NCBI RefSeq assembly: GCF_000633935.1 | Contig: NZ_KK214996.1 | Coordinates: 761,880-825,879, forward strand | Source of the DNA: Ectothiorhodospira haloalkaliphila ATCC 51935 | GTDB taxonomy: Bacteria > Pseudomonadota > Gammaproteobacteria > Ectothiorhodospirales > Ectothiorhodospiraceae | Reading direction: 5' to 3' | DNA: 64,000 nt | Shown here: one piece after another, positions 30,387-56,969 of the stretch | Position numbering within the stretch: the stretch's first letter is position 1 | Layout of the letters: the number at the start of each line of letters is the position of its first letter | Notes under the pieces: generated by a model | Seen by the model: the letters and a program-made list of their open reading frames with translations, nothing else | The model's database searches: none | What the model was told of the DNA's origin: nothing | Translations under genes and position numbers: made by a program

Positions 30387-30628
30387 GGGGTGATTCCGAA
30401 GATTGTTGCTGATGGCGCACAGTCTACACCGGCACCCGACCCGTTCCGAGTATCTGCAACGGTAACAAGGTCGGATCGCCCCGTGGAGCCTTCGCCGGGA
30501 GAAGCCTGAAAGGCCGGGGCTGATCATGCCGGCAGCAATGGCTGAATCGTCAAAATTCTTTACAGCACACGCCAGGATGCATACCCAAAAAACGCTCAAC
30601 ACTCTGATTTCATTAGCAACTCAGTTTA

Positions 30629-30644
30629 CGGCACGAGATATGCT
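30629..30644 (+). promoter_or_regulatory. Sigma-54 (-24/-12) promoter-like site before the activator gene
   Basis: CGGCACGAGATATGCT gives GGCACG, four spacer bases, then ATGC. GG and GC are separated by exactly 10 bases, as sigma-54 requires. It departs from the consensus TGGCACG-N4-TTGCW at two positions. Transcription would begin near 30655, about 28 bases before the GTG of the activator, so autoregulation is possible. The surrounding 296-base gap is AT-rich and also carries the ilvD promoter region. Confidence 0.5.
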
Positions 30645-30682: not shown

Positions 30683-32053
30683 GTGGACTCAGGTGCGATA
30701 AAAGCACACCGACTTCTTTGGGTGGACCTCTCGGAACACACAGAGCCACCTGATCTGACGAATTCCTGGGAGATCCTGGTGGTCCCCTGCCTCGCCGAGG
30801 CGGAAGCAATCCTCAGGGACCCCAGCGTGATGATAGGGGTATTCCCGCTCAGGCAGGATTTGCTGAACCAGTTGCCCGCCCTCGAGCGTTTCCTGCAACA
30901 GCATGGTACCCGGGAGTGGATTGCACTGGTGGAACCAGACCTGCTCTGGGACCCGCGTGTTCGCGAGATCCTGCGCCACTGGTGCTATGACTTCCACTCC
31001 CTCCCGGTGGATACCTATCGCCTGGAGGTGGTGCTGGGGCATGCCTTCGGCATGGCTGAGCTGCTCATGCACTCCGACGTGCACTGCAACTCCCTTGATC
31101 AGAAGGACCCTCTCACCGGCGAGAGTCCACCCATGGATCAGATCCGCCGCACCATCTCCAAGGTGGCCCGCGTCGCCGCCCCGGTGCTGATCACCGGTGA
31201 GAGCGGCACTGGCAAGGAGCTGGCGGCCCGCGCCGTGCACGAGGCCTCCCCCCGGGCAGGCCGCCCCTTCGAGGCCATCAACTGCGCCGCGGTGCCGGCC
31301 TCGCTCATTCAGTCGGAGCTGTTTGGGCACGAGCGCGGGGCCTTCACGGGCGCCCATCGCACCCGAGGTGGCCGGGTGCAGTCTGCCCATGGTGGAACCC
31401 TGTTCCTGGATGAGATCGGTGACCTGCCCCTGGAGGTACAGGCCTCATTGCTCAGATTCCTGCAGAACCAGACAGTGCAGAAGGTGGGTAGCGATCATGA
31501 AGAGAAGGTCGATGTGCGCGTCGTGGCTGCGACCCATGTCAACCTGACGGAGGCAGTGAAGGAAGGGCGATTCCGGGAGGACCTGTTCTATCGCCTGGAC
31601 GTCCTGCACTTCGAGATGCCACCCCTGCGGGAACGGGACGGGGATGGCGTATTGCTGGCTCATCACTTCTTTCAGGCCTTCGCACGCGACCGCAACGCCC
31701 GCGTGAAGGGTTTCAGCGCGTCCGCCCTGGAAGCCATCCGCCAGCACCACTGGCCCGGCAATGTCCGGGAACTGATCAATCGCGTGCGGCGCGCCATGGT
31801 GCTGTGCGAGAACCGCTTCATCCAGCCCGAGGATCTGGGGCTCGAGGACGCACTGGAGAACACCCTGCCCCAGGCCTCTCTGGAGGAGGTGCGGGCAGAG
31901 GCGGAACGCGCCGCCATTGTCCGCGCCCTGCGGGCCTGCGAGGGCAACGTCTCGGCGGCTGCCCGTCGCCTGAACGTCTCGCGCATCACACTCTACCGTC
32001 TGGCTCGACGTCACGAAATCTCCCTGCAGGGGCAAGCGGCAATCAAGAGCTAG
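30683..32053 (+). CDS. Sigma-54-dependent transcriptional activator, VpsR-like
   Basis: A 456-residue enhancer-binding protein. Residues about 10-135 resemble a response-regulator receiver but lack a clear phosphorylatable Asp pocket. The AAA+ domain (about 145-375) has [15 protein letters not shown] (Walker A), the complete GAFTGA sigma-54 contact loop, and [15 protein letters not shown] (Walker B). A Fis-type helix-turn-helix ([22 protein letters not shown]) ends the protein. The degenerate receiver recalls VpsR/FleQ-type regulators of biofilm genes, some of which bind c-di-GMP; that ligand is a guess. It sits next to the FapF-like gene. The best sigma-54 promoter of the region lies before the repeat-protein gene at 36.2 kb. 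Start GTG at 30683. Confidence 0.88.
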
Positions 32054-32145: not shown

Positions 32146-33201
32146 ATGAGATTCACCCGCAAACGCCTGGCAATTGCCTGCTCCACTTTGCCACTGCTGC
32201 TGACTCAAGCAGCCTGGGCCCAGGGACAGCCGCCAGAAGAGGTGGGTGAGAGGCCGCCCCAGGAAGAGGCCCAGCCGGACGTGGCGGCGGTGTTCCAGGA
32301 GCGCGGTCTGCTCACCCCCAAGGGGGGCTGGGTGGTGGAGCCATCGCTGCAGTACGTGCACAGTTCATCCACCACGGTGGCCATCGACGGGTTCACCATC
32401 CTGCCGGCCATTGCCATCGGCCTGATCGACCTGACCGAAGTCCAAAGGGACACGCTCACCGCAGCGCTTTCCTTCCGCTATGGCCTGTCCAATCGCATGG
32501 AAGTGGGTATTCGCATACCTTACGTCTGGCGGGATGAATCGCTGCGTCGGCGGGAAGTCCTGGTGGGCACCTCTGCCGAACAGGTCACGGGTTCCGATGG
32601 CCATGGCCTTGGGGACGTGGAACTGGCCCTGCACTACCAATTCAACCGGGCCGTGACGGGCAAGCCGTTCTTCATCGGCAACCTGCGCGTCAAAGCCCCC
32701 ACGGGCACCTCCCCGTTCGATGTGGAACGCGAGCTCATCCTCGACGATGATGGGCGCCCCATCACGGAAATCTTCATCGAACAGCCCACCGGCTCGGGTT
32801 TCTGGGCCGTCCAGCCGAGCCTGACCATGACCTACCCCACCGATCCGGCCGTGATCTACGGCAACATCAGTTACCTGTGGAACGTTGAGCGCGACGTGGG
32901 CAACGATCTGGGCAAAATCAACCCGGGGGATGCCCTGGGAATGAGCATGGGCGTGGGTATCGCCCTGAACAACCGGACTTCCATCAGCCTCGGCTACGAT
33001 CACAGCATGGTCTTCAAGACCCGGTATGAAAATGCACCACCGCTGGACCCGGCCTTCGACCGCATACAGGTGGGGACCTTCCTCTGGGGTTTGTCACACA
33101 GAGTGTCCGACCGCACCAGCATGAACCTGTCGGTGGGCATAGGAGCTACCTCGGCTGCGCCCGATACCCAGATTACACTTCGCTTGCCCATGCGTTTCTG
33201 A
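32146..33201 (+). CDS. FapF-like outer-membrane beta-barrel transporter
   Basis: A 351-residue exported protein with a signal peptide (LAIACSTLPLLLTQAAWA-Q, cleavage near residue 25). A Pro/Glu-rich stretch follows, then GLLTPKGGWVVEPSLQYVHSS. That opening and the many alternating beta-strands up to the terminal aromatic RLPMRF match the transporter family containing FapF, the amyloid-secreting porin of Pseudomonas. It probably forms an outer-membrane pore exporting fibre subunits. It follows the sigma-54 activator by 92 bases and converges on the C39 peptidase cluster, with 14 bases between the gene ends. An N-terminal coiled coil as in FapF is not obvious. Confidence 0.75.
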   Translation: MRFTRKRLAIACSTLPLLLTQAAWAQGQPPEEVGERPPQEEAQPDVAAVFQERGLLTPKGGWVVEPSLQYVHSSSTTVAIDGFTILPAIAIGLIDLTEVQRDTLTAALSFRYGLSNRMEVGIRIPYVWRDESLRRREVLVGTSAEQVTGSDGHGLGDVELALHYQFNRAVTGKPFFIGNLRVKAPTGTSPFDVERELILDDDGRPITEIFIEQPTGSGFWAVQPSLTMTYPTDPAVIYGNISYLWNVERDVGNDLGKINPGDALGMSMGVGIALNNRTSISLGYDHSMVFKTRYENAPPLDPAFDRIQVGTFLWGLSHRVSDRTSMNLSVGIGATSAAPDTQITLRLPMRF

Positions 33202-33215
33202 GGGTTTGAATCGGC

Positions 33216-33776
33216 TCAGTAGCCCCTCAGCCCCTGGATCATCTGGGCGTCCAGCATGCGGCGCATCTCCATGCGGTTGAAGTTCACGCCTGCCATGTCC
33301 ACGTTCAGGATGGTCTGGTTGCTGATCACCTGGTGGTTCAATTGATTCTGGACGACGGTATTCCAGCCTGGACCCGACAGGGCATGAACCGACACCCCAT
33401 CCAGGGTGTTGCGGATACGCAGGCTACCCGGAGCCGCATTCATCCCGGTTCCAGAGGGATCCATGAGTACCGTGCGTGCCACAACCTCCCCATTGATCGC
33501 CGTGGTGCGCTCGATACCCAAGGCCAATTCAAAACCACCGCGCTGAATCAGCCCACCCCGCTGATCCGCCAGTTCATGATCCGGCACGACCGCCCAGGCC
33601 ATCATCTCCAAAGGGTCACCCGTGCCGGCAGGGTCCGAAGGATAAGACCATTCACCCTGAGCCATCGAGAGGGTCGGCAGCACGCTGCCCATCACAAGGC
33701 TCAGACACAAAAAACGCATCCAGAGCCCCGAAGCACGAGGCGGTGTATCGACCCGCTCGAAAGATAGCGCTTCCAT
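33216..33776 (-). CDS. Exported protein of the Fap-like locus
   Basis: A 186-residue protein with a hydrophobic signal segment (MRFLCLSLVMGSVLPTLSMA) beginning at residue 20. The start is either ATG 33776, with GAGGT upstream, or ATG 33719, which would give a standard signal peptide. The C-terminal part reads NTVVQNQLNHQVISNQTILN. This resembles the endings of the other two exported proteins of the locus (VIQNSGHNVIIQDSTVIN and VAQNSGTNSLVQQQVSV). It lacks cysteine pairs. By position it could be a FapE-like accessory or minor fibre subunit; function unknown. It is the last gene of the leftward group. Confidence 0.65.
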   Translation of the reverse strand: MEALSFERVDTPPRASGLWMRFLCLSLVMGSVLPTLSMAQGEWSYPSDPAGTGDPLEMMAWAVVPDHELADQRGGLIQRGGFELALGIERTTAINGEVVARTVLMDPSGTGMNAAPGSLRIRNTLDGVSVHALSGPGWNTVVQNQLNHQVISNQTILNVDMAGVNFNRMEMRRMLDAQMIQGLRGY

Positions 33777-33794: not shown

Positions 33795-34511
33795 CTACCA
33801 GTCGGAGTGACGTGGCAATGCCAGGATAAAATCCGCCAACCCATTACGTGCCAGGGCGGTACCATAGGGGGGTGCCGCCAAGGATTCCCAGGCCACCGGG
33901 GCGTTGAAATTCGCCCGCCCCAGGTCCAGCTGGTCACGAATCAGAAACAGAATGTCGTTACTGCGAATGGCCTCGAATTCGGCGCGACTGTAATCGGTCA
34001 CACCCAGTGCGGGGTCGCCCACCAGAACACGGTCCCCCTTGATCCCCTTGACCACGACGAAATGACGGTAGCCCTCGATGTCCACCAAGGCGATGGCCGG
34101 CACACCCACTTCCTCCAGCGTTTCCAGAGGAAGCCGAAAGCCATCTGAAGCGATTCCCAGGCCCGCCAGATAGCGCTTCATGTCCAGCATGGAGAAACCC
34201 TGCTCACGAATCCGGGCCTGATCCCCCATTTCATACATGGCCTCGAAAGTGTCACGCTCCTGGGTGGGACGGTCGTAATGGTAGGTCAGCAGGGTCGCCA
34301 GGGCTGCCGAGCCGCAGCTGAAGTCATACTGCTGGCGCACCACCGTCTTGAAACGCATCCCCTGCAAGCTGGTCACGGTCATCTCGTGACTGCCCATGGC
34401 GCCCGGAACATGCACCATGCCCGTGGCATGACCGTGCGACGGGGCCATCAGCGCCCATCCACCCCAGACCAGGGCCACCACACCGATGATGCTCGATCCA
34501 CGCGACGACAT
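33795..34511 (-). CDS. C39-family cysteine peptidase (FapD-like)
   Basis: A 238-residue peptidase with an N-terminal signal or anchor helix (IIGVVALVWGGWALMA). The catalytic triad is visible: Cys66 in QYDFSCGSAALATLL, His150 in GYRHFVVVKG, and Asp166 in VGDPALGV. The family normally cleaves leader or export substrates. Unlike bacteriocin exporters it has no ABC transporter domains, matching FapD of the Pseudomonas amyloid operon. It is probably periplasmic and processes or licenses the repeat protein and its partners. The start lies 7 bases after the preceding stop, and the ribosome-binding site is weak, so translational coupling is likely. Confidence 0.85.
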   Translation of the reverse strand: MSSRGSSIIGVVALVWGGWALMAPSHGHATGMVHVPGAMGSHEMTVTSLQGMRFKTVVRQQYDFSCGSAALATLLTYHYDRPTQERDTFEAMYEMGDQARIREQGFSMLDMKRYLAGLGIASDGFRLPLETLEEVGVPAIALVDIEGYRHFVVVKGIKGDRVLVGDPALGVTDYSRAEFEAIRSNDILFLIRDQLDLGRANFNAPVAWESLAAPPYGTALARNGLADFILALPRHSDW

Positions 34512-34518
34512 GACGGAG

Positions 34519-34884
34519 TCACGGCGCCATGTTGAGGTTGATGACGGTTGAATCCTGGATGATCACGTTATGACCAGAGTTCTGGATCACCGTGCTGATA
34601 CCCTGGGCATGCGCCAGTGCGCCCGGAGCCAGGATGTTGTCGCCGCTGACTCCCCGCTCGATGTAAGTATTGGACATGTAGGCATTGGAGGTCACCCGGG
34701 TCATCTGCAGGGTACCCACATCACTCATCGCGCGCTCCCCTTCCAGTTCCGCATCCGACAGCGCTCCCTCAAGTGCAGCGAAGTCCCCGGCAGCTGGCAG
34801 CGCGATCACGCAAAGCCAGGTGCCGACCACGAGGCAGGCACCCAGACGCATTGAATATCGCCCAAGAACGGATTGACTGCTCAT
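34519..34884 (-). CDS. Small exported protein of the Fap-like locus
   Basis: A 121-residue protein with a signal peptide (LGACLVVGTWLCVIALPAAG, cleavage near residue 33). The C-terminal half reads ISTVIQNSGHNVIIQDSTVI. It shares the QNSGxN motif with the large repeat protein and resembles the end of the protein at 33216. Start ATG 34884 has AGGGG upstream; a GTG sits directly before it. It may be a minor subunit or nucleator comparable with FapB or FapE, but the similarity is short. The gene follows the repeat-protein gene across a strong hairpin and overlaps no other gene. Confidence 0.7.
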   Translation of the reverse strand: MSSQSVLGRYSMRLGACLVVGTWLCVIALPAAGDFAALEGALSDAELEGERAMSDVGTLQMTRVTSNAYMSNTYIERGVSGDNILAPGALAHAQGISTVIQNSGHNVIIQDSTVINLNMAP

Positions 34885-34916
34885 CACGCGTTCACCCCTG
34901 TAACTCGGTGGACGAT

Positions 34917-34978: not shown

Positions 34979-36250
34979 TCAGTTGCCATTGCCGTTGCCC
35001 AGGCCCAGATGCGCCTGCACGGAGACCTGCTGCTGAACCAGACTATTGGTACCACTGTTTTGGGCCACCTGCGTGACACCCGCCGAGTTACTCACGCCAC
35101 CCTCGCCGATGTAGTTGTACGCCGTGTAGGTGGTCTCGGCATCGATATTGAGCCCGGTGAAGCTCACGCTGCCACTCAGGTCATTCTCGGACACCACCAT
35201 GGTCTCGACGTTGAATGAATCCGTCACACTGTTGTCGATGTTGTTGGTGGTGTTGGTGGTGGTGTGCTGGCTGTTGTCCGAATTATCATCATTCGAATCC
35301 GTCCAGCTCATGTTTGTATTGAACGAATCATTGTTGCTGTAATCGGAATTGTCATCGTTTGAATCGGTCCAACTCATGTTCGTATTGAACGAGTCATTCT
35401 TACTGCTGTCGGAATTGTCCGCATAATTATGGGAATCCGACGTATTGTATGAATCGTTGGTGCTGTTATTGGAGTTATCATCCTTCTCCATACTGCTGCT
35501 CCAGTTGCTCTCGCTGGTGCTGCTGTAGTTCTGGGAGTCGTTGATGCTGTTATTGGAGTTATCGTCCTTCTCCATACTACTGCTCCAGTTGCTCTCACTG
35601 GTGCTGCTGTAGTTCTGGGAGTCGTTGATGCTGTTGTTGGAGTTATCATCCTTGTTAAAGGAATCGTTCACGCTGTTATTGGAATTGTCGTCCTTCTCCC
35701 AGTTGCTGGTCCAGCTGCTCTCGCTGGAGCTGCTGGAGTTGTAGGAGTCGGCCATCGCCTTGTTGAACGAATCGTTGGTGCTGTGATTGGAGTTATCATC
35801 CTTCTCCATACTGCTGGTCCAGCTGCTCTCACTGGTGCTGCTGGAGTTATTGGAATCGGTCCAGGACTTATTGCCCGAATCAGAAATATCGGAGCTCCAG
35901 CTACTTTCCGAAGAAGCATTCCAGCTGCTCTCCTTGTTCGTATTATGAGAATCGCTGTAACTGGTATTACCGGAGTCAGCCACAGAGGAACTCCAACTGC
36001 TTTCCTTGTTGGTATTATTGGAATCCGCATAGCTCGTGTTTTTGGAATCGGCATAGCTAGCGTTGCCCGAGTCTGCGGTGGAACTGTTAAAGGACGAATC
36101 CAGCCCACTGTAGGCACTCTGTCCACCGAATTCCCCTTCGCCCGCGTTACTGGCGCCCCCCGGAATACCATCTTCAGCCCAGGCAGGCGCAGCCACACCC
36201 AATGTCATGGCAACAGCAGCGCAGATTGCAGTCTTCTTGAAGTTCAACAT
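34979..36250 (-). CDS. Exported Ser/Asn/Asp-rich repeat protein, candidate amyloid fibre subunit
   Basis: A 423-residue low-complexity protein. It begins with a clear signal peptide (MLNFKKTAICAAVAMTLGV..., cleavage after APAWA near residue 25). Residues about 50-340 consist almost only of Ser, Asn, Asp, Thr, Glu, Lys, Trp and Tyr in repeats such as DDNSNNSINDSQNYSSTSES with regularly placed Trp. A 28-residue unit is tandemly duplicated. The last 90 residues are non-repetitive (SVSFTGLNIDAETTYTAYNY) and end with GVTQVAQNSGTNSLVQQQVS. The start ATG 36250 has GAGGAGGAAG upstream; the frame continues further upstream as non-coding. A sigma-54 promoter lies 78 bases upstream. With the FapF-like pore and C39 peptidase nearby, a secreted biofilm fibre or surface-layer protein is the best reading. 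No known family is certain. Confidence 0.8.
   Translation of the reverse strand: MLNFKKTAICAAVAMTLGVAAPAWAEDGIPGGASNAGEGEFGGQSAYSGLDSSFNSSTADSGNASYADSKNTSYADSNNTNKESSWSSSVADSGNTSYSDSHNTNKESSWNASSESSWSSDISDSGNKSWTDSNNSSSTSESSWTSSMEKDDNSNHSTNDSFNKAMADSYNSSSSSESSWTSNWEKDDNSNNSVNDSFNKDDNSNNSINDSQNYSSTSESNWSSSMEKDDNSNNSINDSQNYSSTSESNWSSSMEKDDNSNNSTNDSYNTSDSHNYADNSDSSKNDSFNTNMSWTDSNDDNSDYSNNDSFNTNMSWTDSNDDNSDNSQHTTTNTTNNIDNSVTDSFNVETMVVSENDLSGSVSFTGLNIDAETTYTAYNYIGEGGVSNSAGVTQVAQNSGTNSLVQQQVSVQAHLGLGNGNGN
35471..35660. repeat. 84-bp tandem repeat inside the repeat-protein gene
   Basis: GGAGTTATC begins at 35471, 35555 and 35639, giving an exact 84-base (28-codon) period. Two full copies differ at only a few positions, and a third starts. 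Slippage or recombination would add or remove 28 residues without shifting the frame. Confidence 0.85.
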
Positions 36251-36326
36251 CGATTCTTCCTCCTCAACGTATCGACGGTCCCCCTGCGGGTATCCCATGA
36301 ACCCCGGGTCCGCGATGAAGAGCAAT

Positions 36327-36343
36327 TGCAACCATCGAGCCAA
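36327..36343 (-). promoter_or_regulatory. Sigma-54 promoter of the repeat-protein gene
   Basis: On the minus strand the sequence is TTGGCTCGATGGTTGCA. This matches the sigma-54 consensus TGGCACG-N4-TTGCW, with intact TGGC and TTGC elements at exact spacing; only the AC of GGCAC differs. The -12 GC is 78 bases before the ATG at 36250, predicting a 5' leader of about 65 bases. The activator gene with a complete GAFTGA loop lies in the same locus. Confidence 0.75.
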
Positions 36344-36384
36344 CAACAAAAAACCCCGCAAGATCTGCAGGTTGGGACACATGA

Positions 36385-36431
36385 CACATTTCTGATGTGG
36401 GCTGCGATACACTTCGAGTAACCAAAAGTGT
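36385..36431. promoter_or_regulatory. Inverted repeats upstream of the sigma-54 promoter, candidate enhancer sites
   Basis: CACAT-N5-ATGTG lies at 36385-36399. ACACTT-N11-AAGTGT lies at 36409-36431. They are about 45-100 bases upstream of the -24/-12 element, where enhancer-binding proteins with Fis-type helix-turn-helix domains normally bind. Assignment to the neighbouring activator is inference. Confidence 0.4.
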
Positions 36432-36607
36432 TTCGAGCCTGATACATTCAACAACATATAAAGCTCATTTCAGGCCGCGGATGCGCAAGGGCACTGACCT
36501 TGGGCTATGCGGAGCCGGGTGTATCAATATGGAAACACGCTGCACACGAACCCACACCTGATTCATTGCTAGACCCCCTCCCCAAAGGCCCTTTACCGGA
36601 GCCCACC

Positions 36608-37759
36608 ATGTCACACACTTCGCTAAACCACATGCTCAAGCGCCTCATCGAAATCCCCTCGGTGAGCAGCGTCTCGCCGAGCCACGACATGGGGAACCGT
36701 CCGCTGATCGACGAGCTGGCCGGCTGGTGCGAGGCGGGAGGCTTTCGAGTGGAGGTCAGGCCCCTGGAAGGCGTGGCCGACAAGGCCAACCTGGTGGCCA
36801 GCCTGGGCAAAGGGCCTGGCGGGTTGGTATTGGCAGGGCACACCGATACCGTGCCCTGCGATCCTCACCTGTGGTCCCAGGATCCCTTCCAGGGGGTCTT
36901 CCGTGACGACCGCCTGTACGGCCTGGGCAGCTGCGACATGAAGAGTTTCCTGGCCCTGGCCCTGGAGGCTGCAGCTGGTTTTGACCCAAAAGATTTCCGA
37001 CACCCGCTGGTGATCCTGGCCACGGCGGACGAGGAAAGCTCCATGCGCGGGGCCCGGGCCATTGCTGAAGCCGGACAACCCCTGGGGCGCCAGGCGGTGA
37101 TCGGCGAACCCACCAACCTGCGGCCCGTGCGCATGCACAAGGGCATTCTCATGGAAGGCATCCGGGTGACGGGGCAGGCCGGGCATTCCAGCGACCCCAG
37201 CCTGGGTAACAGCGCCCTGGAAGGCATGCATCGGGTGATGGGCGAGGTCCTGGCCTGGCGGGACGAACTCCAGGCCCGGCATCGCAACCCGCAGTTCCAG
37301 GTGGCGGTACCCACCCTGAACCTGGGTCACATACACGGCGGTGATAACCCCAACCGCATCTGCGGCCAATGCGAGCTGCATATCGACCTGCGCCCCCTGC
37401 CCGGCATGGAGCCCGACGCACTGCGCCAAACCCTGACCGAGCGCGTGGACAAGGCCCTGCAGGATACGGGCCTGGATCACGAGGTCTTCCGCCTGATTCC
37501 GGGCGTTCCCCCCATGGAAACGCCCGCCGACAGTGAACTGGTGAGGGTCACCGAGGAGCTCACCGGCCATGCCGCCGAGGCGGTCGCCTTCGGCACGGAA
37601 GGCCCCTTCCTGCGCCAGATGGACATGGACGTGGTGATCCTGGGCCCCGGCGACATCCGGCAGGCGCATCAACCGGATGAATACCTGGCCCTGGACCGCA
37701 TCGAACCGATGCTGAAGATCCTGCGCGGCCTGATCCAGCGATTCTGCATCCATGCGTGA
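36608..37759 (+). CDS. argE: Acetylornithine deacetylase
   Basis: A 383-residue M20-family metallohydrolase, the same length as E. coli ArgE. It removes the acetyl group from N-acetylornithine in arginine synthesis. VLAGHTDTVPCD near residue 75 and DDRLYGLGSCDMKSFLA near 100 supply zinc ligands. ATADEESSMRGA holds the catalytic Glu pair, and GEPTNLRPVRMHKG and FGTEGPFL complete the site. The ATG at 36608 (MSHTSLNHML) has GGAG upstream and matches family starts; the frame is open for 36 codons before it. It is followed after 121 bases by argA, so the two arginine genes form a likely unit. Confidence 0.94.
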   Translation: MSHTSLNHMLKRLIEIPSVSSVSPSHDMGNRPLIDELAGWCEAGGFRVEVRPLEGVADKANLVASLGKGPGGLVLAGHTDTVPCDPHLWSQDPFQGVFRDDRLYGLGSCDMKSFLALALEAAAGFDPKDFRHPLVILATADEESSMRGARAIAEAGQPLGRQAVIGEPTNLRPVRMHKGILMEGIRVTGQAGHSSDPSLGNSALEGMHRVMGEVLAWRDELQARHRNPQFQVAVPTLNLGHIHGGDNPNRICGQCELHIDLRPLPGMEPDALRQTLTERVDKALQDTGLDHEVFRLIPGVPPMETPADSELVRVTEELTGHAAEAVAFGTEGPFLRQMDMDVVILGPGDIRQAHQPDEYLALDRIEPMLKILRGLIQRFCIHA

Positions 37760-56084: not shown

Positions 56085-56969
56085 ATGACCCTCTGGCAAA
56101 ACCTCTCCAACCAGATCACTCAAGCCAGCGGCGAGTGCTTCACCCTCAAGAACTACCGGGGGGCCGGCGGCGGCTGCATCAACGAGGCAGCCGTGCTGGA
56201 AGGCAAGGACGGGCGCAGCTTCTTCGTCAAGCTCAACCGCCCGGACCTGAAGGACATGTTCGCCGCCGAGGCCGAAGGCCTGCAGGCCCTGGGAGAACCA
56301 GGAGAGATCCGCGTTCCCACGCCCCTGTGTCATGGCATCACCGATGGACGCAGCTATCTCATCATGGAGCACATCCCCCTGGGCGGGCCGCGCAACTCAC
56401 GAGCCTTCGGCGAGCAACTGGCCCGGTTGCACCAGCACACCCAGCCCCGCCATGGCTGGCACCGGGACAACACCATCGGCAGCACGCCGCAGATCAACAC
56501 CTGGAGCGACGATTGGGTGCATTTCTGGCGTGAGCACCGCCTGGGCTATCAGTTGGGCCGTGCGCACGACCAGGGCGCCGGTCGGACCCTGGTGGAAGCC
56601 GTGGAACAGTTGATGGCATCCCTGCCGGCCTTCTTCACGAACTATCGGCCACAAGCCTCGGTGCTGCACGGTGACCTGTGGGGCGGGAATCACGACTCGG
56701 ACGCCCAGGGGAACCCGGTGATCTTCGATCCCGCGGTGTACTACGGGGACCGGGAGACGGACGTGGCCATGACGGAACTGTTTGGTGGCTGTGACCGGGA
56801 TTTCTACGCCGCCTATGACGCCACGTGGCCGCGCGATCCGGGCTATGGGGTTCGCAAGGACCTGTACAACCTGTACCACCTGCTGAACCACTTCAACCTG
56901 TTTGGCGGTGGCTATGCGGGTCAGTCGGAGCGGTTGGCACGGCGGTTGCTGGCGGAGGTCAAGGGATAA
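56085..56969 (+). CDS. Fructosamine kinase family protein
   Basis: A 294-residue kinase of the FN3K group. GAGGGCINEAAVLEGKDGRS and FFVKLNRPD give the nucleotide-binding lobe. VLHGDLWGGNH near residue 195 holds the catalytic Asp and Asn, and DPAVYYGDRETDVAMTELFG the metal Asp. It phosphorylates sugars bound to protein or free amino groups, allowing deglycation. It follows slt by 12 bases on the same strand. The 3' end overlaps convergent rsmD by 11 bases. Confidence 0.9.
   Translation: MTLWQNLSNQITQASGECFTLKNYRGAGGGCINEAAVLEGKDGRSFFVKLNRPDLKDMFAAEAEGLQALGEPGEIRVPTPLCHGITDGRSYLIMEHIPLGGPRNSRAFGEQLARLHQHTQPRHGWHRDNTIGSTPQINTWSDDWVHFWREHRLGYQLGRAHDQGAGRTLVEAVEQLMASLPAFFTNYRPQASVLHGDLWGGNHDSDAQGNPVIFDPAVYYGDRETDVAMTELFGGCDRDFYAAYDATWPRDPGYGVRKDLYNLYHLLNHFNLFGGGYAGQSERLARRLLAEVKG

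Follow-up and report, generated by a model that had tools for sequence, protein, structure and literature searches.

In the 64,000-nucleotide stretch of DNA analysed here (the window), from the purple sulfur bacterium Ectothiorhodospira haloalkaliphila ATCC 51935, a four-gene operon headed by a secreted repeat protein is, with high confidence, predicted to be transcribed from a sigma-54 promoter that the neighbouring BrfA-type activator drives through two upstream palindromes. The kind of circuit is already known, since control of fapA-E by RpoN and BrfA has been published (PMC9207406), and by its sequence features the circuit of the window is a distant relative of that RpoN-BrfA biofilm control circuit. 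What the evidence points to as new is a divergent member of the kind with an unrelated fibre candidate, together with a cis-code that spans the Proteobacteria. The elements concerned are the following.

36327..36343, minus strand: -24/-12 sigma-54 promoter TTGGCTCGATGGTTGCA, one mismatch to consensus, conserved in orthologous loci
36355..36371, minus strand: terminator-like hairpin with a T-tract, next to the -24 box on its upstream side
36429..36446, no strand assigned: UAS1, TGTATC-N6-GAAACA, 103 bp upstream of the -24 box
36520..36537, no strand assigned: UAS2, TGTTTC-N6-GATACA, 194 bp upstream of the -24 box
34979..36250, minus strand: secreted Asn/Ser/Asp-rich repeat protein of 423 aa, candidate fibre subunit, with the conserved C-terminal motif QNSGTNSLVQQQVSVQAHL
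34519..34887, minus strand: small secreted protein of about 122 aa, candidate minor subunit, similar at its C-terminus to the repeat protein
33795..34511, minus strand: C39 peptidase, FapD-like (NF058616)
33216..33776, minus strand: FapE-like secreted protein, by profile match to FapE
32146..33201, plus strand: FapF-like outer-membrane barrel (NF058560), convergent with the operon
30683..32053, plus strand: sigma-54 activator of BrfA type (P0005), with a VpsR N-domain, an AAA+ domain carrying GAFTGA and a Fis-type HTH
30628..30644, plus strand: second -24/-12-like site ACGGCACGAGATATGCT, 55 bp before the activator gene

The original prediction of a near-consensus sigma-54 site before the repeat-protein gene was right in sequence, strand and coordinates: TTGGCTCGATGGTTGCA departs from the consensus TTGGCACGNNNNTTGCW by a single A-to-T mismatch and keeps GG and GC at -24/-12, 10 bases apart. 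Its distance of 78 bases to the start codon holds when counted from the -12 C (36328) to the A of that codon (36250), with 76 nt between the 3' edge of the site and the codon, and the arithmetic that places the predicted transcription start at about 36316 is correct as well. Sites with at most one mismatch number two in the window against 0.16 expected, and when the 372 bp ahead of the repeat-protein gene are shuffled, 0.1% of the shuffled sequences carry such a site on the gene's strand. The motif by itself is nevertheless weak evidence, because the window's only perfect consensus (56934-56950, plus strand) falls inside a fructosamine kinase gene, at its 3' end, and a looser pattern finds 74 matches across the genome. 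Behind that perfect consensus no recognised gene follows on the same strand. The genome encodes RpoN (498 bits), and a consensus scan of 36200-36640 found no sigma-70-like promoter. The hairpin at 36355-36371 may prevent read-through, and a T-tract recurs at its position in several Ectothiorhodospira loci.

What makes the site convincing is that all 16 orthologous promoters compared have it at a conserved position. The comparison set comprised 16 syntenic loci, namely the window and 15 relatives from Ectothiorhodospira (including E. marina, E. shaposhnikovii and E. mobilis, of the same genus) and from the more distant Thioalkalivibrio, related at family level. Six genes are syntenic in all 15 relatives: those for the repeat protein, the small protein, the C39 peptidase and the FapE-like protein, and those for the convergent FapF-like barrel and the activator. 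In every locus the start codon follows the best upstream -24/-12 site by 91-105 bp. Under a weight scheme made by hand, with a threshold of 14, all 16 loci carry a site, against an average of 0.86 loci and a maximum of 4 in shuffled sequence; the loci share ancestry, and are not 16 independent events. The upstream neighbour varies (in the window an M20 peptidase gene, in E. shaposhnikovii an unrelated reading frame, in Thioalkalivibrio yet another), while the promoter layout is kept; the promoter region therefore moves with the operon.

Upstream of the promoter stand two activator-type palindromes of the general form TGTWTC-N6-GAWACA, both of which the earlier reader had overlooked. The distance between the -24 box and the near one is 102-103 bp in Ectothiorhodospira and 81-82 bp in Thioalkalivibrio, a shift of 21 bp, i.e., two helical turns. 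The far one lies at 194-197 bp in Ectothiorhodospira and at 171-172 bp in Thioalkalivibrio, where it is clear only in four loci (L038, L042, L043, and L045). Strong matches with a spacer of 6 occur in 12 of the 16 loci, other spacers giving 0-1, and 14 of the 15 strong matches in 349 kb are at the repeat-protein promoter. Across the 3.45-Mb genome the strict palindrome has five matches, two of them at this promoter (control, 0). A wider palindrome regulon was considered and dropped: the other three matches lie within or overlap open reading frames, so no regulon beyond the repeat-protein operon is claimed. An IHF-type site was sought between the palindromes and the promoter, and none was found at one mismatch or fewer.

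The activator encoded in the locus is well suited to such a promoter. It combines an N-terminal VpsR domain (PF20161) with a sigma-54 interaction domain, an AAA lid and a Fis-type HTH, and its Walker A and Walker B motifs are intact, as is the complete GAFTGA loop that had been noted from the sequence. The N-domain is predicted with good confidence to adopt a receiver-like fold, and the protein matches VpsR structures in sequence; the AAA+ part of the structure model was poor and was not used, and fold matches served only as a check. Its best NCBIfam match is PrsR, below the cut-off. The LFRS motif, which is the c-di-GMP motif of FleQ, is absent from it. In a maximum-likelihood tree, 43 fap-linked activators form one group (support 99/89), with ten other activators of the genome outside it, and the group takes in those that occupy the place of brfA in Pseudomonas-type fap loci. 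Through these brfA-position proteins, the activator of the window is likely to be a distant orthologue of Pseudomonas BrfA.

The activator gene has a -24/-12-like site of its own, and similar sites precede it in 7 of 8 Ectothiorhodospira loci (shuffles, mean 0.22 and at most 2); none was seen in Thioalkalivibrio, and no UAS palindrome precedes the activator gene. The site at 30628-30644 is named as a candidate sigma-54 promoter of the unit formed by the activator and fapF-like genes, and it would leave room for autoregulatory feedback or for control by another activator, both of which are possible.

Beyond the family, 80 FapD-like loci were taken from named genomes, of which six duplicated the Ectothiorhodospira set and nine were truncated, leaving 65 for testing. 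The composite sought in them, a site scoring at least 14.5 with a palindrome 70-140 bp upstream, was present in 40 of the 65; its rate in shuffles was 0.15%, and the opposite strand yielded it in none of the 65. It was found in 21 of 22 loci with a linked activator (five of these 22 being Thioalkalivibrio loci already in the 16-locus set) versus 19 of 43 without (Fisher p 3e-5, uncorrected for relatedness). For some of those 19, an activator is in fact present but was lost to the automatic filter on length or distance. In Cupriavidus the site occurs without a linked activator, and the genomes tested hold full-length relatives of the activator elsewhere; in Cupriavidus and relatives (L087, L100, L103, L106, L108-L110, L124, L125, L128, L132, and L133) the palindromes sit at a fixed -136 and at about -258. 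The Pseudoxanthomonas loci are without the composite, and their genomes show only generic activators. In eight Pseudomonas-type loci, recognised by a peptidase above the curated FapD cut-off, an activator occupies the brfA position, and all eight carry a -24/-12-like site and palindromes upstream of the operon, e.g., TGTTTCATCACTGATACA and TGTTTCAGGGTTGAAACA.

Linkage alone is no proof of sigma-54 activation everywhere, because in Marinobacter (L089, L093, L113, L120, and L134) the linked activator reads GAFTHA and has lost Walker B to degeneration; it is apparently ATPase-dead at a sigma-54-type promoter. The operons of these same loci retain GG-N10-GC and the palindrome. Other loop variants seen in the survey are GAFTNA (L130 and L078) and GAFTDA (L049).

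As for what the operon makes, the repeat protein is a candidate fibre subunit on account of its FapD-, FapE- and FapF-like neighbours. The C39 peptidase matches NF058616 at 4.7e-41 and 140 bits (curated cut-off, 330), the barrel matches NF058560 at 3e-43 and 148 bits (curated cut-off, 700), and the FapE-like protein has a weak match to FapE by hhalign (81%, E 1.2e-5, 48 columns). The repeat protein has no Pfam or NCBIfam match, and its structure model is uninformative (pLDDT 41). A C-terminal CxxC is a feature of the fibre subunits FapC and FapB. The only Cys of the repeat protein lies in the signal peptide, so it has no such motif, and its hhalign probability against both FapC and FapB is below 1%, which lends no support to assigning it as FapC. 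With FapD and FapF matches under the curated cut-offs and a FapC not found, the locus is not filed as a Fap system, though it would seem to work like one. Elsewhere in the same genome, a second C39 peptidase has as its neighbour a protein resembling an outer-membrane barrel of FapF/Fil type (L027, G000:C2:207003-210506), apparently a separate secretion locus. The top matches of a literature search included no paper on a functional amyloid of the haloalkaliphilic sulfur bacteria Ectothiorhodospira and Thioalkalivibrio.

Taken together, these features suggest the following course of events. RNA polymerase with sigma-54 would transcribe the four-gene operon of repeat protein, small protein, FapD-like peptidase and FapE-like protein, while the activator and the FapF-like secretion barrel would form a separate, convergent unit. 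Activator dimers would bind UAS1 and UAS2, the TGTWTC-N6-GAWACA palindromes at 103 and 194 bp from the -24 box, and loop to the closed complex, which the GAFTGA loop would remodel at the expense of ATP; such looping and ATP-driven remodelling through GAFTGA are general sigma-54 biology. The switch would probably be thrown by c-di-GMP, as published for BrfA, which is described as a direct c-di-GMP sensor in an account that cites Guo et al. 2024 (PMC13101488); for the window, c-di-GMP is the probable signal by virtue of the BrfA orthology and the VpsR domain. Comparison of sequences establishes the site, the palindromes and their phasing, the synteny, the activator clade and the code common to the window and the Pseudomonas-type fap loci; from these we infer the binding of the activator to the palindromes, the RpoN-dependent transcription, the c-di-GMP signal and the fibre product. 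That the promoter pairs with the linked activator, among the 12 strong sigma-54 activators (Sigma54_activat) of the genome, is strongly indicated.

It is unlikely that the operon has a sigma-54 promoter driven mainly by another of these genomic activators, with the linked one serving its own unit or some other target. In favour of this reading, the genome has 12 strong Sigma54_activat proteins, and in Marinobacter the promoter persists beside a linked activator that looks ATPase-dead. The palindrome, however, tracks the linked activator (21/22 loci, against 19/43 with none nearby), Cupriavidus, which has the site and no linked activator, keeps full-length relatives of it elsewhere in the genome, the fap-linked activators fall into one group, and the strict palindrome is nearly confined in the genome to the repeat-protein promoter.

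We consider it very improbable that the -24/-12 match arose by chance and that the operon relies on an ordinary sigma-70 promoter. Perfect consensus sequences do arise by chance inside genes, as at 56934-56950, but the position is conserved in 16/16 loci, the palindromes are in helical phase, and 36200-36640 holds no sigma-70-like promoter. Nor is there much to be said, with odds about as long, for an activator that acts without RpoN in the manner of Vibrio cholerae VpsR, the -24/-12 site being a relic. The VpsR-type N-domain and the sequence match to VpsR structures would fit that idea, and VpsR is indeed independent of RpoN (PMC5552954); against it, the activator of the window retains GAFTGA and Walker B, the -24/-12 site is conserved, and BrfA, the likely orthologue, works with RpoN (PMC9207406). 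The reading in which the linked activator drives a sigma-54 promoter remains by far the preferred one, and the proposed tie between activator and fibre-candidate gene held in each respect that sequence can check, namely the promoter's conserved position, the phased palindromes, rpoN, the intact activator, its linkage, the clade and the Pseudomonas-type layout.

On a broader scale, we lean slightly towards the view that the VpsR-domain activator, the palindromes and the -24/-12 site make up an old, Proteobacteria-wide switch of FapD/FapF-type loci, which would have persisted as an unrelated sequence took the place of the fibre subunit, with Marinobacter drifting to a form without the ATPase and the sigma-54 loop. 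With the present analysis a guess about one site becomes a testable operator-activator pair, and the motif provides a handle for finding RpoN-controlled (and probably c-di-GMP-controlled) amyloid-type loci whose fibre protein is unrecognisable. The analysis also suggests that the control of such fibres is more conserved than the fibres themselves.

Several known systems resemble the circuit in part. The PrsK-PrsR/RpoN system of PEP-CTERM genes (PMC9850573) likewise places a sigma-54 promoter and an upstream enhancer before a surface-protein gene; in contrast to that system, no protein of the window's operon matches PEP-CTERM, and none of the syntenic genes was seen to encode a kinase. BerB of Burkholderia cenocepacia is a GAFTGA activator that works with RpoN and is linked to c-di-GMP and the biofilm matrix, but it lacks the N-terminal domain and controls berA and exopolysaccharide rather than a fibre operon (PMC5552954). 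V. cholerae VpsR shares the N-terminal VpsR domain (PF20161), the AAA+ domain and the HTH, as well as a role in biofilm matrix control; VpsR works without RpoN, whereas the activator of the window has an intact GAFTGA and a target of sigma-54 type.

The closest parallel in layout is the fapA-E operon of Pseudomonas fluorescens PF07, whose -24/-12 promoter, mapped by 5' RACE, depends on RpoN and whose expression requires brfA, the adjacent activator gene in reverse orientation (PMC9207406). Both loci place fapD/fapE-type genes behind a -24/-12 promoter, with a reverse-oriented activator gene downstream. In the window the fapF-like gene is convergent and lies within the activator's unit, unlike in the fapA-E system; fapF is not induced with fapA-E in PF07, and in the window it stands outside the operon. 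For the fibre candidate, no relation to FapC or FapB could be detected. The activators of Pseudomonas-type fap loci are 47-50% identical to that of the window and form one clade with it, and those loci carry the same type of palindrome upstream, at about 80 and 138-178 bp from the -24 box versus 103 and 194 bp in the window.
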